Source of the DNA: Candidatus Abyssobacteria bacterium SURF_5
Lineage (GTDB): Bacteria; Abyssobacteria; SURF-5
Assembly (NCBI GenBank): GCA_003598085.1
Contig: QZKU01000031.1
Location: forward strand, 1 to 45,993
Length of the DNA: 45,993 nucleotides
Direction of reading: 5' to 3'
Shown here: piece by piece, positions 36,935-44,437 of the stretch
Layout of the letters: each line of letters starts with the position of its first letter
Numbering within the stretch: the first letter of the stretch is position 1
The notes under the pieces: model-generated
Seen by the model: only the letters and a program-made list of their open reading frames with translations
Told to the model about the DNA's origin: nothing
The model's database searches: none
Program-made: the position numbers and the translations under genes

Positions 36935-38230
36935 TTACGCGGTGATGTTGTAGCCGAGGCCGATGATCGGCTCGGCGGCTGCGTCCTGAACCGGTTGGAA
37001 ATCGAGCCGCTGTGTCGCGATGGCGACGTCCTGGTCGGTTTCCATGTACAGTTCCTGGCTCACGCGCAGGGTGATGCTCCTGCGATCGCCGTACAGAAAC
37101 GCCGGCCGGTACACCAGCGGGAGCACGGTATCGGTCGTGGTGATCCCGTCGTACACGCCGGAATCGTTGAGGTCCTCGCGGATGAACTCGCTCACGATGA
37201 CGGGGATTCCGTCGAGCTTGGCGAGTTCGCCGCTCAGGATGGTGGCATTTGCGCCGTACTTGTCGACCGTGAGCACCTCGCTCAGGTTGAGCATCTTGTT
37301 GAAGACGCTGATGCCCGCGATCCAGGCGAGGTTGTTCGGGTTGACGCCGTACTTGCCCATCGCGGCGCGGACCGCGCGCAGGTCCGTGATGTTGAACGTC
37401 GCCAGGTCCACCTTCGCCGACGCCAGCGCCAGCTTGCGGTAGCCGTCCCACGCCTTGCGAGTGTCGTTCGCGCCGGTTACGTCGCTGTCCTGGTGCGTAC
37501 CGGCGGTGTCGCCGTTGATGGTGGCGTTCTCCTGCGCCTCGGCGAGCGCCTGCACGATCTTGTCGCGCAACAGCGGAAGAATCGCCACGACGCTGTCCTC
37601 CTCGAGCTCGGTCGATACCAGCACGCGGCACGCGAGCTTGACCGCGTCGAACGTGACGTTTTTGGTGCCGGGCGTCGAAGCCGTGAACTTCGTCGCCGTG
37701 TCGCTGGTCGATTCGGCGGCCAGGTACGCTGTCGCATCCGCGCCGTCGATCGGCAGCTTGAACGGGTTCATCGGCATGACGATGCGCGCGTGCAGCGCCG
37801 CCACCTTCAGCGCCAGCTTCACCTTCTGGATCAACTCCGCCGAGAAACCGGTCGGAATCCATTCGAGCCCTTCATCGGCGGTGGCGGTGTCCATCGCCTT
37901 GCGCAAAGCGGACGCATCCTGCGAGAATTCGCCCCACATCTTCAGGCTGCGCGGGTCGCGCCGCAGCAGCTTCGAGACGAGGTAGATATCGTCGGCCCGG
38001 CGCTGCAGCTCGGGAGAGAGGTTGGGCCGCGCGAACCGGTGCGATTCGGCGTCGGTGCTGAATTCGACCTTGCGCAGCGAGCGCTCGCGCACCGCCGTCC
38101 TCTGCCGGCTGAGTGCGTCCTCGATCATCGTGTCGATCAACTTGCGCTGAGCGCCCGCGTCCACCTTCTCCTTGATGGCGCGCACCAGTTGAAGCAACTC
38201 GTGATCCGGTTTGGTCTGTACGTCTGTCAT
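36935..38230 (-). CDS. Phage major capsid protein, HK97 fold
   Basis: 431 residues. About 110 N-terminal residues are charged and helical (a delta-like scaffold, ADDIYLVSKLLRR) and would be removed by the protease. The HK97 core follows with LEWIPTGFSAELIQKVK, PFKLPIDGADATAYLAAES and DAVKLACRVLVSTELEEDS, as in many siphophage capsids, and ends with YRPAFLYGDRRSITLRVSQE. ATG 38230 has AGGAGG six bases upstream. It sits downstream of the prohead protease, the usual order, and about 70 bp before the connector. An encapsulin is unlikely because of the delta-like domain and the protease. Confidence 0.92.
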   Translation of the reverse strand: MTDVQTKPDHELLQLVRAIKEKVDAGAQRKLIDTMIEDALSRQRTAVRERSLRKVEFSTDAESHRFARPNLSPELQRRADDIYLVSKLLRRDPRSLKMWGEFSQDASALRKAMDTATADEGLEWIPTGFSAELIQKVKLALKVAALHARIVMPMNPFKLPIDGADATAYLAAESTSDTATKFTASTPGTKNVTFDAVKLACRVLVSTELEEDSVVAILPLLRDKIVQALAEAQENATINGDTAGTHQDSDVTGANDTRKAWDGYRKLALASAKVDLATFNITDLRAVRAAMGKYGVNPNNLAWIAGISVFNKMLNLSEVLTVDKYGANATILSGELAKLDGIPVIVSEFIREDLNDSGVYDGITTTDTVLPLVYRPAFLYGDRRSITLRVSQELYMETDQDVAIATQRLDFQPVQDAAAEPIIGLGYNITA

Positions 38231-38269
38231 GTGCTTCCTCCTTTTGGTTGTGGTTGTTTTATGGGGCGG

Positions 38270-38420
38270 TCTTGAACCTGCCCCTATGAGTTTGTTTTGG
38301 GGACAGTGAATGTCCGACGATTGATTCGCGTGCCTCGTTGCGATGGGGACAGCCCCGAAGCTACGCTGAAAGACGCGGCCCGTAATTCTTGGGACAGTCC
38401 CCATCGCGACCATGGGACCC
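38270..38420. repeat. GGGGACAG hairpin variants between protease and capsid genes
   Basis: 38298-38410 contains GGGGACAGTGA, CGATGGGGACAGCCCCGAAGC and TCTTGGGACAGTCCCC pieces shared with 40560-40760. 38450-38490 carries the CCAAAGCTTGTCCCGGA direct repeat. Confidence 0.7.
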
Positions 38421-38494
38421 ATCCACCGTCCCCGTAGTTCCCCATCCAAAATCCAAAGCTTGTCCCGGACCTCGATCCGGGATCTAAAATCCCC

Positions 38495-39514
38495 TTACTC
38501 CAGCATCTCCATCACTTCAGTCAGAACCGCGTGCGCCTCGGCCAACGCGAGGGGACTGACTCCATTTACGGAATTCATGCTTATTCCGATGTCGTTGAGC
38601 GGAGCGAAATCCCGCGCCCCGCGGGATAGAATGGTGTCTGTCCCCAAGCGAAGGGGACTGACTCCATTTACGGAATCCACGTCTTTTTGGATTCGTAGAA
38701 TGGTGTCTGTCCCCGGAGCCTCCGCAGTGTCTCTCCCCCGGCGAAGGGGACTTACTCCATTTACGGCCGCGCGAAGGGGACTGACTCCATTTACGGAGTT
38801 CATGCTTATTCCGATGTCGTTGAGCGGAGCGAAATCCCGCGCCCCGCGGGATAGAATGGTGTCTGTCCCCGGAGCTTCTGCAGGGTCTGTACCCATGGCG
38901 ATCTTGGCGTCTTTCCCCGCAGCCTCCTCCACGAGATCATTCCCCATGCTCAGGCCCTTGCTGACCGAAAAAAGGGCGCGCCGGTTCGCGGGGATGCTGA
39001 CGACGGCCACCTCGTAGAGCCTCAGCCGCAAGATGTGGTTGATGCCGCCGACAACTTTCTCCTCGACCACCTCGTATCCGATGCTGAAGGCGCGCAGGAT
39101 GCCCTCGCGGATCAGCTTCCACACCTTCTCCGCCGTTTCCGAGATCTCGGCCCGGATGAATAGACCGACCTCGTCGATGCGCGCTTCGACCACCTTCCCG
39201 ATGGGATTGCTCCAGTCGTGCATGTAGGTCAGCACCGGGTTCGCCATGAATTCGGTGAGGCTGTCGGCGAACGCGCCCGGCTCCACGATCTCGCCGGTCC
39301 GGTCAAGGTCGCGCGTCGAGGCGTAGCCCTCGATGCGGCGCGCGCCGTCGCCGGACTCGACCAGCTTCATGTGAAACTGGAAGGTCCTGCGGCCGCCGGC
39401 GGGGCGGGCGGAAGCGGTTCGCCCGTCCCCCTCCGACGCCGTCACCCGGTCGCCCGCCCGGTGCTGCCCGTTCTCCAAAAGATGTTCGCCTTTCACATCC
39501 GAATGCTCTGCCAT
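38495..39514 (-). CDS. Phage prohead protease (HK97 family) with in-frame repeat insertion
   Basis: 339 residues from ATG 39514 (AAAGGAG eight bases upstream). The maturation serine protease shows its catalytic region: FQFHMKLVESGDG, VLTYMHDWSNPIGKV with the histidine (about 95-109), AFSIGYEV with the serine (about 143-150), and VAVVSIPANRRALF. The enzyme should end near residue 200. Residues about 207-321 are instead repeats (GTDTIL...NGVSPLR units), translated without a stop from the repeat array at 38549-38895, and the native-looking tail ALAEAHAVLTEVMEMLE follows in frame. So the repeats grew or were inserted inside the gene while keeping the frame. It is unknown whether the longer protein is functional. 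Confidence 0.88.
   Translation of the reverse strand: MAEHSDVKGEHLLENGQHRAGDRVTASEGDGRTASARPAGGRRTFQFHMKLVESGDGARRIEGYASTRDLDRTGEIVEPGAFADSLTEFMANPVLTYMHDWSNPIGKVVEARIDEVGLFIRAEISETAEKVWKLIREGILRAFSIGYEVVEEKVVGGINHILRLRLYEVAVVSIPANRRALFSVSKGLSMGNDLVEEAAGKDAKIAMGTDPAEAPGTDTILSRGARDFAPLNDIGISMNSVNGVSPLRAAVNGVSPLRRGRDTAEAPGTDTILRIQKDVDSVNGVSPLRLGTDTILSRGARDFAPLNDIGISMNSVNGVSPLALAEAHAVLTEVMEMLE
38549..38895. repeat. In-frame array of GGGGACnGACnCCATT hairpin repeats inside the protease gene
   Basis: Two near-identical long copies (38551-38645 and 38773-38872, each with a CCCGCGCCCCGCGGG inner hairpin) flank a short copy (38647-38718, inner stem GAATCCA...TGGATTC) and a partial one (38740-38772). 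One reading frame is open through all of them on the minus strand. Confidence 0.9.
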
Positions 39515-39719
39515 ATCGGTGACTCCTTTTCTGTGGTTCGATTCAGTTCTCATGATGAAGAAATACCACACCCCGAATTCCTGAACAACGACATAGTTGT
39601 GAACGGATATGTCAGGAAAACCGGAAGATTTTTTACATCAGTGAGTTACGCGGATAATCAGAAATGGGAAAAGGGGGGAGCGGGTTTGGGCTCGGGGCCT
39701 TGGGTTTTGTTCAAAATTG

Positions 39720-40453: not shown

Positions 40454-40800
40454 AGGCTGGGGCTGCGGGGATAGACGCCAATCTACGAATTTTGGAAGAT
40501 GCGGATTCCGTAATTGGAGTCAGTCCCCTTCGCTTGGGACAGGCACCATTAATGCTCTGGGGACAGTGAGACTGTCCGACGATTGAGCGGCTGGTTCTTG
40601 CTCTGGGTACAGACACCATTCTACGAATTTAAAAAGGCATAAATTCCGTAAATGGTGTCAGTCCCCGCCGCCTTGCTAATCCGGTGCCATCTGCTCTGGG
40701 GACAGCCCCGAATCTACGGCCTAAAAGACGCGGCCCGTAATTCTTGGGACAGTCCCCGACGCCTGCGGATTCCGTAATTGGAGTCAGTCCCCTTCGCCCC
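40445..40800. repeat. GGGGACAG hairpin repeat cluster
   Basis: In the gap between the four-helix gene and the DUF378 gene. 40463-40535: variant copy ending in GGAGTCAGTCCCC. 40545-40575: half copies. 40605-40668: complete copy with stem GAATTT...AAATTC. 40690-40795: a copy with GGGGACAGCCCCGAATC and two GTCCCC ends. The gap 40454-40879 holds no gene. Confidence 0.85.
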
Positions 40801-41403: not shown

Positions 41404-41413
41404 CGGAGTGGAA

Positions 41414-42292
41414 GTGAATTTCGGATACCTCCTCAGGACGTTGCGCATCTGCGCCGGTCTCAGCCTTCGAGAGCTTGCGCGGACCATTGATGTTTCGCCA
41501 ACGTACCTGAGCCTGATAGAGAACGGAAAGCAGCCTCCCCCGAGCGCCTCCAGGATAGCCAGAATCGAGCAAGTCCTCGAGGTGCCGGCGGGCTACCTAT
41601 TGTCCATCGCCCGCGGGCTTGACCCCGCCATTCTCTCCTTCATTCAAGACATGCCTGAGGCCCTCGATTTTCTGACGGCGGTAAAGGAAAGGGGAATCAA
41701 GCCGGCCGATCTCAGCGAACTGGCCGCATTTGTGACCACGCAGGGAGGCGATAAGCTCAGACAGGTCCTGCAATCAGCCACTTTGCCGGCGCCGGAGCCG
41801 AAGCCGGCGGCAAAAAGTTCCTGTGGGGCCTATATCTGGCCGTACCTGGACGAGGAGCTGGTTTTCGATTTTACCGCCGTGCGCGAGAAAGAGGGGTTTC
41901 TCCAGGATGCTGTCCATCGCATATGCCAGCATTGCAACGGCGCAAGCGAGGAGAGTATTCTGGCGGAACTGCTGAAGCGTGAGAAAATAGCAAGCACCGG
42001 CATCGGGCATGGGATCGCGGTGCCGCATGCTTATGTATCAGGCATCGAGCGCCTGGTGGTCGCCTTCGCCAGGATTCCGCGGGGGCTGGATTTTCACGCG
42101 ATCGACGGTGAGCCGGTCCACATGGTCCTGGTGCTTGCCGGCCCGCGTTCGGCCAAGAACCTGCATCTGCTGCTGCTCGCCCGGATCGCCCGACTGGTGC
42201 GCAACCGCTCCTTCTGCCAGCGCGTTCTTTCTGCCGCCACCCCTCGCGAGATAGTGGACATCTTTCGGAACGCCGAAGCGGCCAGTCCGTAA
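41414..42292 (+). CDS. XRE-family HTH regulator fused to PTS EIIA (EIIA-2) domain
   Basis: 292 residues. N-terminal HTH_3 (about 5-60: LRTLRICAGLSLRELARTIDVSPTYLSLIENG), a helical linker with Ala/Pro (about 85-135), and a C-terminal PTS EIIA type-2 domain (about 140-290). The phosphorylatable histidine is in GIAVPHAYV (motif ASTGIGHGIAVPHA) with the downstream DFHAIDGEPVHMVLVLAGP segment. Regulation of an HTH by EIIA phosphorylation links transcription to PEP:PTS or nitrogen state. The GTG at 41414 is chosen, with GGAG five bases before; GTG 41408 is too far upstream of any SD. No EI or HPr gene is in the window. Confidence 0.85.
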   Translation: MNFGYLLRTLRICAGLSLRELARTIDVSPTYLSLIENGKQPPPSASRIARIEQVLEVPAGYLLSIARGLDPAILSFIQDMPEALDFLTAVKERGIKPADLSELAAFVTTQGGDKLRQVLQSATLPAPEPKPAAKSSCGAYIWPYLDEELVFDFTAVREKEGFLQDAVHRICQHCNGASEESILAELLKREKIASTGIGHGIAVPHAYVSGIERLVVAFARIPRGLDFHAIDGEPVHMVLVLAGPRSAKNLHLLLLARIARLVRNRSFCQRVLSAATPREIVDIFRNAEAASP

Positions 42293-42583: not shown

Positions 42584-42630
42584 CTACCTTTCACCTCCTT
42601 CTCTCGCAGTTGTATCTGTAATAGATGTCT

Positions 42631-42673
42631 AAAAAATAAAAAACCGTAAGAGTCGAAACTCTTACGGAGGTGA
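42631..42673 (-). promoter_or_regulatory. csp leader: terminator hairpin with anti-Shine-Dalgarno segment
   Basis: The leftward transcript contains TCACCTCC (42673-42666), complementary over eight bases to GGAGGTGA of the csp ribosome site (42598-42591). It overlaps by two bases a perfect 10-bp hairpin CCGTAAGAGT-TTCG-ACTCTTACGG (42667-42644) followed by TTTTTTATTTTTT. This can act as an attenuator or a small RNA terminator. Confidence 0.75.
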
Positions 42674-42725
42674 GTCAATTTTTTTCAGACCAACTCGATG
42701 CGAAGAGCTTTCACTCTTGCGGGCG

Positions 42726-42754
42726 AGTATAGCATACCCGGAAAGGCTTGTCAA
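42726..42754 (-). promoter_or_regulatory. csp promoter
   Basis: On the minus strand, -35 TTGACA (42754-42749) and -10 TATACT (42731-42726), spacer 17 bp; start near 42719. Confidence 0.85.
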
Positions 42755-42805: not shown

Positions 42806-44437
42806 TTATTTCGGATCGGGAAGCGTGAAGTAGAAGGTGGCGCCTTTCCCGACGGCGGCCTCGGCCCAGATCGTGCCGCCGTGGCGGCGAATGATGCGGG
42901 CGACCGTGGCCAGCCCGATGCCTGTTCCCGCGAATTCGCTCGATGGATGCAGCCGCTGGAATGCCTGAAAAAGTTTCTCGACGTACTCCATGTTGAAGCC
43001 GGCGCCGTTATCGCGGACGAAATATACGCGCGGCCCTGCCGCGGCCGTGTCCTCCGCAGGCTGCTGCAACACACCGAATTCTATTCTTGCGTTCTTTTTG
43101 CCGCCCGTGAATTTCCAGGCGTTCCCGAGGAGATTTTCCAGCGCCAGGCGCAGCAGCCGGAAGTCGGCGTTCGCGAACAGGCCGGGCGCAATCGATACGT
43201 TCACGACGCGGTCGGGCTCGGTTTCCTGCAGTTGGCCGATGACGGCGCTCGCCATCGAGCTGATGTCCACCTGCTCGCGGTGCAATGGCGTGCGCGTCGC
43301 GGTCGACAGGCCGAGCAGGTCGTTGATAAGCTGGGTCATCTGAAAACAGGCGCTGCGGATGTTGCGCAGGTATCGTTTTCCGCGCTCATCCATATGCTGG
43401 GTGTACTCGTCGGAAAGGATCTGGCTGAACCCGAGGATGTTGTTGAGCGGCGAGCGCAGGTCGTGTGAGGCGGAATAGGTGAAAGCTTCGAGCTCGCTGT
43501 TTGCCTGCTCCAACTGGCGGGTGCGCTCCGCCACCCTTTGCTCGAGTTCTTCGTTCAGCCTGCGGATTTCGTCCTCCGCCTTTTTCCTTTCGGTGATGTC
43601 GCGAACGTACTCGATAATCCCCTCGAGCTGCCCGGTCCCGGTATCGACGAGCGGGAACGCATACAGGTCGAACCACCCGATAATGCCGCCGTCCGGTCCG
43701 CGCCGCGGAACAACCTCATGCGACGCTCCGCCGCTCTCGATCGTTCGCAGGGTCGGGCACAGCTCGCACGACCGATCGCTTCCGTTATAGGCCTCATAAC
43801 ACTTCTTGCCGACGAGCGGCATCGCGTGAGCGTACCACCGCTCCATCGTCGGATTGACGCGAAGGATGTTCATTTTGTTGTCGAGCACGCTGATGCCGTC
43901 CTGGATGCTGGCGAAGATGTTCGAGAGGAAGCGGTCCTGTTCCTGCAGCGCCTGCTCGGCGCGTTTGCGTTCCGTTATATCAAGCGCAAGCGAAAGCGCC
44001 CCGATGACGTGGCCCTCGTTGTCGTACCGGATCGCGTTGTTCCATTCGCACAGAATCAGTTTGCCGCTCTTGGTGAGGTTCTCATTGATGTGCGTGATCG
44101 GCAATTCCCTGTTCAGCAGAGCGGAAACCACATCCTTGACCTCGAACTGCACGGTCTCCGGGATGAGAAACTCAAAGAAATTTTGGCCGATGATCTCTTC
44201 CCGCTTCCAGCCGAACATCTTCTCGGCCCGCTCATTCCAATCGATCACGCGGCAGTCGAGGTCCCAGATGACGAACGCAAGCGGCGCAATCGCATAAATG
44301 TTGCGGTACAGCCGCTCGCTTTCCGTCCGGGCGCCCTCGGACCAGGCCGGCGGTTGAGGGACTGGTTTTTTGGCCCCCTTCTTCTGAACGCGCGCCCGGC
44401 GCCGCAACGGCTGCTTTTTGTTTTTCTCGTTCTTCAT
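42806..44437 (-). CDS. PAS-PAS sensor histidine kinase
   Basis: 543 residues, no TM segments. Basic N-terminus (about 1-35); PAS 1 (about 45-160, NWDLD...EKMFGWKREEIIGQNFFEF); PAS 2 with a cysteine cluster (about 170-300, KCYEAYNGSDRSCELCP); a coiled linker (KKAEDEIRRLNEELEQRVAERTRQL). HisKA has H in ASHDLRSPLNNILG (about 330-343). HATPase_c has N box NLLGNAWKF, G1 VRDNGAGF and G2 GTGIGLATVARIIRRHGG. Cytoplasmic, hybrid-free; the response regulator is not in the window. The ATG at 44437 is preferred over TTG 44446. The Cys-rich PAS 2 may bind a redox or metal cofactor (inference). Confidence 0.92.
   Translation of the reverse strand: MKNEKNKKQPLRRRARVQKKGAKKPVPQPPAWSEGARTESERLYRNIYAIAPLAFVIWDLDCRVIDWNERAEKMFGWKREEIIGQNFFEFLIPETVQFEVKDVVSALLNRELPITHINENLTKSGKLILCEWNNAIRYDNEGHVIGALSLALDITERKRAEQALQEQDRFLSNIFASIQDGISVLDNKMNILRVNPTMERWYAHAMPLVGKKCYEAYNGSDRSCELCPTLRTIESGGASHEVVPRRGPDGGIIGWFDLYAFPLVDTGTGQLEGIIEYVRDITERKKAEDEIRRLNEELEQRVAERTRQLEQANSELEAFTYSASHDLRSPLNNILGFSQILSDEYTQHMDERGKRYLRNIRSACFQMTQLINDLLGLSTATRTPLHREQVDISSMASAVIGQLQETEPDRVVNVSIAPGLFANADFRLLRLALENLLGNAWKFTGGKKNARIEFGVLQQPAEDTAAAGPRVYFVRDNGAGFNMEYVEKLFQAFQRLHPSSEFAGTGIGLATVARIIRRHGGTIWAEAAVGKGATFYFTLPDPK

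Follow-up and report, generated by a model that had tools for sequence, protein, structure and literature searches.

Leaders in which an intrinsic terminator responds to a protein or a condition are familiar from attenuators of the pyr operon type and from riboswitches. To our knowledge, the control of cold-shock genes outside model bacteria is largely unknown. In Escherichia coli, cspA has a long leader element that acts on translation and stability (PMC4956666), cspB and cspG are under Rho-dependent control (PMC7815308), and the Csp proteins CspA/C/E/D alter intrinsic termination (PMC9765468), as do CspB and CspD in Bacillus subtilis (PMC8307031). Csps are known as antiterminators or termination helpers (PMC4956666, PMC9765468, PMC8307031). 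With the terms used, a search of the open PMC literature turned up no account of csp leaders with an intrinsic terminator for the lineages considered here.

The locus studied here lies in a 45,993-nt stretch of DNA (the window) from Candidatus Abyssobacteria SURF_5. The host is an uncultivated bacterium of the deep subsurface. Its genome comprises 5,103,455 bases in 145 contigs, and the published description gives 5.1 Mbp, 145 scaffolds and sampling at 22 °C (PMC6121073). On the minus strand, an open reading frame with a TTG start (42583–42383) encodes a 66-aa cold-shock protein (Pfam CSD match, E = 2.7e-28). Its Shine-Dalgarno (SD) sequence, GGAGGTGA, was read directly at 42598–42591. The leader occupies the same strand between a histidine kinase gene, which ends at 42806, and csp. 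On the plus strand, the gene at 41408–42292 is convergent with csp; its product joins a helix-turn-helix domain to one of PTS EIIA type. Genes for a phage capsid protein (PF05065) and a prohead serine protease (PF04586) are adjacent at 36935–39571 on the minus strand, a pair that we read as a possible prophage remnant or similar element. Dispersed repeats around GGGGACTGACTCCATTTACGG / TGGTGTCTGTCCCC are present at 38546–38894 and 40461–40797 and extend into the end of a prohead-protease reading frame. Three genomes of the Abyssubacteria family contain five csp genes each, giving 15 csp genes for comparison; in the csp region that was compared, one of these relatives (G002) is identical to Candidatus Abyssobacteria SURF_17 (L055).

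Direct reading of the minus strand revealed a csp promoter at 42754–42726, in which TTGACA (from 42754) is separated by a 17-nt spacer from an extended -10 element, TG.TATACT (ending at 42726). The original prediction had called this promoter perfect; it is present, and with 11 of 12 consensus bases and a TG before the -10 it is near-perfect. We then have, downstream of it, an intrinsic terminator (42667–42631) composed of a 10-bp hairpin, CCGTAAGAGT-TTCG-ACTCTTACGG (42667–42644), and the U-rich tail TTTTTTATTT, which agrees with the hairpin and U-run predicted ahead of csp. Terminators of this quality are rare in the window, a strict scan of both strands giving three in 46 kb. The distance from the -10 to the U-run implies a terminated RNA of ~80–90 nt, in line with the roughly 90 nt anticipated. 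Ownership of this terminator by the upstream histidine kinase gene was considered and rejected, since the csp promoter sits between them.

The same arrangement was observed in nearly all csp genes of the family. A terminator passing the strict scan is present in the leader of 14 of the 15 genes from the three genomes, L043 being the one that fails; by comparison, the whole 46-kb window has three such terminators. Promoters were scanned in these 14 copies, L043 being omitted as it has no U-run: a TTGACA matching at 6/6 positions with a 17-nt spacer lies upstream of the terminator in every copy, and it belongs to the sole good promoter, with 10–12 of 12 matches upstream of the terminator versus at best 6–8 of 12 downstream. 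From the positions of promoter and terminator, csp would be transcribed by read-through only.

Twelve of the 15 csp genes (class I) share one leader. It consists of the TTGACA-17-extended -10 promoter, a 5'-terminal hairpin AGAGT-AA-RCTCTT (P1), a variable linker and a terminator of the form GTCCGTAAGAGTTTTG...RCTCTTGCGGGCTTTTTT, followed by a variable stretch of ~40–60 nt and a strong AAGGAGGTGA. All 12 have the promoter, P1 and the terminator in common, with divergent sequence in the intervening and downstream stretches; the core of the SD, GGAGGTG, is conserved in 12/12. As paralogs and orthologs within a single family, the 12 leaders do not represent independent events. The terminator hairpin with its U-run is conserved in all of them: 93.3% of cells are paired, three pairs show double changes, and none of 500 shuffles matched the covariation score. 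In the scan, terminator stems of the relatives have 12–16 pairs with U-runs, and their outer pairs have been lost in the window copy. The three divergent copies (class II: L042, L005 and L043) have unrelated leaders, two of which also contain a strict terminator; by eye, the complements at their 5' ends are too short for significance. The attenuator layout envisaged in the original prediction is right, because an intrinsic terminator separates promoter and gene in every one of the 12 class-I copies from the three genomes.

Layout, conservation and terminator covariation are shown by the sequences, and so is the restriction of the element to csp, which was examined with R1, a covariance model of the class-I leader. 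R1 had 12 matches in the three family genomes, all of them csp leaders and nothing else, and 0 matches at 93 further loci, made up of other csp genes and the class II copies. Over 290 genomes, one further weak match (E = 0.02) was obtained at an apparent purH leader (L147), which is probably due to chance. Around positions 1501–1601 of L147, a locus from an unrelated genome, a terminator-bearing leader precedes a purH-like gene. Rfam searches at a low threshold (E up to 5) yielded nothing in the window but an irrelevant microRNA model, and at the gathering score no csp leader match was found at 17 csp loci, including L062, L068, L088 and L114. Judged from sequence, the class-I leader is a candidate for a real, conserved, csp-only transcription attenuator.

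The distribution of R1 also bears on the suggestion that the terminated RNA of ~85 nt is a trans-acting small RNA, for example one that titrates ribosome sites. A discrete short RNA would be expected if termination occurs. All 12 model matches are csp leaders and no stand-alone gene was found in the three genomes, which leaves the titrating-RNA idea without support; the linker between P1 and the terminator is poorly conserved, and the segment complementary to the SD is confined to one copy. A trans-acting role thus appears very unlikely. Leader-peptide attenuation was also considered. By eye, a GTG-initiated frame in P1 is found only in the window copy and in L040 (GTGA), the other ten leaders having GTAA at this position; with a GTG start in only 2 of 12 leaders, this candidate was rejected.

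The original prediction had also pointed to a segment able to pair over eight bases with the csp ribosome site, a pairing that could be pictured as a translational thermosensor. An exact 8-nt complement indeed exists: TCACCTCC (42673–42666, minus strand) is complementary to GGAGGTGA (42598–42591), and its last two C residues also begin the terminator stem, an overlap of 2 nt. When the window leader was shuffled with its dinucleotides preserved, 0.7% of the shuffles had an exact match of this length to the SD; the figure is post hoc and applies to a single leader. The segment is present in one of the 12 leaders; in the other 11, Watson-Crick complementarity to the SD extends over no more than 3–5 nt. 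The prediction had named lack of conservation in relatives as a result that would speak against it, and as a conserved part of the leader the anti-SD is therefore refuted. In most relatives, the homologous bases (AGGTCC, TGGTCC, AGATCC or AAGTCC) lengthen the terminator stem outward. In addition, the pairing is absent from the lowest-energy fold of the window copy, and when forced it is 0.8 kcal/mol worse than the free fold at 37 °C and 3.8 kcal/mol worse at 10 °C. Folding of the 12 leaders showed no consistent temperature trend in SD accessibility. Among the 12 leaders, only the window copy has the anti-SD. It could act in this single gene, but a thermosensor of this kind as the explanation of the leader is highly improbable.

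The anti-SD principle may exist elsewhere. In a separate type of csp leader from Desulfobacterales, a recurrent CATCCTCC was found by eye to face AGGAGGATG at csp. Within 230 nt before the csp start in L101, L102, L089, L120, L129, L111 and L113, a recurrent ATCCTCCAGT faces GGAGGAT at the csp ribosome site. By eye, this segment is a real candidate for an anti-SD hairpin.

Another conserved part of the class-I leader is P1, AAGAGT...GCTCTT, which in the window occupies 42718–42703 of the minus strand with arms at 42718–42713 and 42708–42703. It is conserved in 12/12 leaders, with 91.7% of cells paired and no double changes. P1 and the terminator are built on a common AGAGT/CTCTT stem, in register with each other, which allows the 3' arm of P1 to pair with the 5' arm of the terminator. 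In the window copy, the P1 3' arm AAGCTCTT (42710–42703) is complementary to AAGAGTTT (42663–42656), a segment made up of the terminator 5' arm and the start of its loop, and this pairing is a candidate antiterminator. The pairing is possible in the 5-bp core of every leader; over the 12 leaders, 87.1% of cells are paired, no covariation was detected, and 412 of 500 shuffles of its own columns attain the observed pairing. Since the cores of P1 and the antiterminator are almost invariant, covariation cannot speak here.

One account of these features is a plain leaky terminator. The hairpin would then set a fixed low level of read-through into csp, or serve as a stabilizing stem of the 5' UTR, with P1 as a 5' stability hairpin and no switching at all. 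The lack of covariation in P1 and the antiterminator is in keeping with such an arrangement, and so is equilibrium folding: once fully formed, the terminator gives the more stable fold in 11/12 leaders, and its advantage grows in the cold. Tests on single sequences are likewise weak, shuffled sequences performing almost as well for most leaders. Sequestration of the terminator arm exceeded that in shuffles at P ≤ 0.05 in 4/12 leaders, and the window copy was the weakest of the 12, falling below most shuffles (z +1.3). When duplexes between the 5' end and the terminator were compared with those of shuffled upstream sequence, P ≤ 0.01 was reached in 2/26 csp leaders and 0/46 control terminators, P ≤ 0.05 in 5/26 and 2/46, and P ≤ 0.1 in 7/26 and 7/46, respectively. 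A leaky terminator, however, gives no reason why P1 and the terminator should have the same stem sequences in each of the 12 leaders, and stems of 12–16 bp with U-runs, such as those of the relatives, would presumably come close to silencing csp unless they were relieved. We regard this account as unlikely. In folding, the antiterminator is lower in energy than P1 in 10/12 leaders before the 3' arm of the terminator emerges. A candidate partner switch between P1 and the terminator, weak in the window copy, has moderate support from the sequences.

In our view, this leader probably acts in cis as a transcription attenuator of csp that is specific to the clade. With a conserved stop on the way to csp, read-through is probably what turns the gene on. 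The start site would lie ~80–90 nt ahead of the terminator's end, and the first part of the transcript may either form P1 or pair with the terminator's ascending arm and loop. If the latter pairing were held, the apical, nucleating part of the terminator would be blocked and polymerase would pass into csp, which it could reach in this way only; if P1 formed, or if the full terminator arm displaced the antiterminator pairing, transcription would stop. We infer this partner switching, and likewise its signal, Csp protein level or cold, and the direction of the response. The most likely input would be the folding state of the nascent RNA, set by free Csp RNA chaperone (autoregulation) and/or by slower strand exchange in the cold. 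As the terminator is favored more at low temperature, any induction by cold would need a kinetic basis. The window copy can also fold into a long alternative hairpin, equal in energy to the terminator at 37 °C but less stable than it in the cold; an equilibrium switch that turns on in the cold would behave the other way round.

A special case of the attenuator, in which the signal is protein and not temperature, is autoregulation by Csp. Here Csp bound to the nascent leader would melt either the antiterminator or the terminator and thereby feed back on read-through. This possibility fits with the effects of Csps on intrinsic termination, which are reported to run in opposite directions in E. 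coli (PMC9765468) and in B. subtilis (PMC8307031), and with the exclusive occurrence of R1, and likewise of the second family described below, at csp genes. On the other hand, a conserved single-stranded Csp motif was not identified in the leader, and Csp binding is putative. Autoregulation may be a plausible candidate for the signal, though we would not yet bet on it.

A second family of csp leaders was found outside this clade. Among csp upstream regions (146 matches, 136 unique after removal of repeats by identity), 26 leaders, mostly from Desulfobacterota-type genomes, have the layout TTTAGCATGTCAGAC...terminator with apical ATGCTAAA. A loose motif had selected 28 leaders, from which L078 and L080 were dropped as another type (set A3); members include L060 (1850–1991), L062, L068, L088, L114 and L116. 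RNAalifold chose a pairing between the 5' end and the terminator apex unprompted. In 24 of the 26 leaders (A4; L060 and L091 left out), this pairing holds in 95.8% of cells, with double changes in three pairs. Swapped partners equaled the native ones in 98 of 5000 permutations, a figure not corrected for relatedness. The corresponding model, R2, gave 39 matches in 14 of the 18 genomes searched, and all 30 matches fetched lie directly upstream of csp. Like R1, the R2 family is exclusive to csp among the loci examined; the 5' end of its RNA pairs with the terminator apex, as is proposed for R1. It differs from R1 in its unrelated sequence and extra stems, and in that its pairing between 5' end and apex covaries; model R1 does not detect it, with no match at the 93 loci.

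Taken together, R1 and R2 might represent two undescribed RNA families, and cold-shock genes of several deep lineages might have independently evolved attenuators of one design, in which the very start of the transcript base-pairs with the apical part of the csp terminator, making csp transcription a readout of nascent-RNA folding and hence of free RNA chaperone. This broad generalization is tentative and rather doubtful at present. With csp placed behind its own terminator, the leader offers a compact circuit in which autoregulation of a chaperone through transcription attenuation can be tested directly, and the two csp-linked families, both without an Rfam match, are concrete objects for such tests.

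With the thermosensor in the E. coli cspA 5' UTR (RF01766), the class-I leader shares its nature as a structured leader of a cold-shock gene with a proposed regulatory role through RNA folding; unlike RF01766, it is an ~80–90-nt leader with an intrinsic terminator and has no Rfam match. Attenuators of the pyr type and riboswitches resemble it in having a promoter and a terminator ahead of the gene, together with alternative hairpins, which are putative in the class-I leader; the latter has no known ligand domain or Rfam match, would control a csp gene, and has a candidate alternative pairing that does not covary. The E. coli and B. subtilis cases, as far as these two papers set them out, are not intrinsic-terminator leaders of csp itself, but they share with the possible autoregulation an action of cold-shock proteins on terminators (PMC9765468, PMC8307031).
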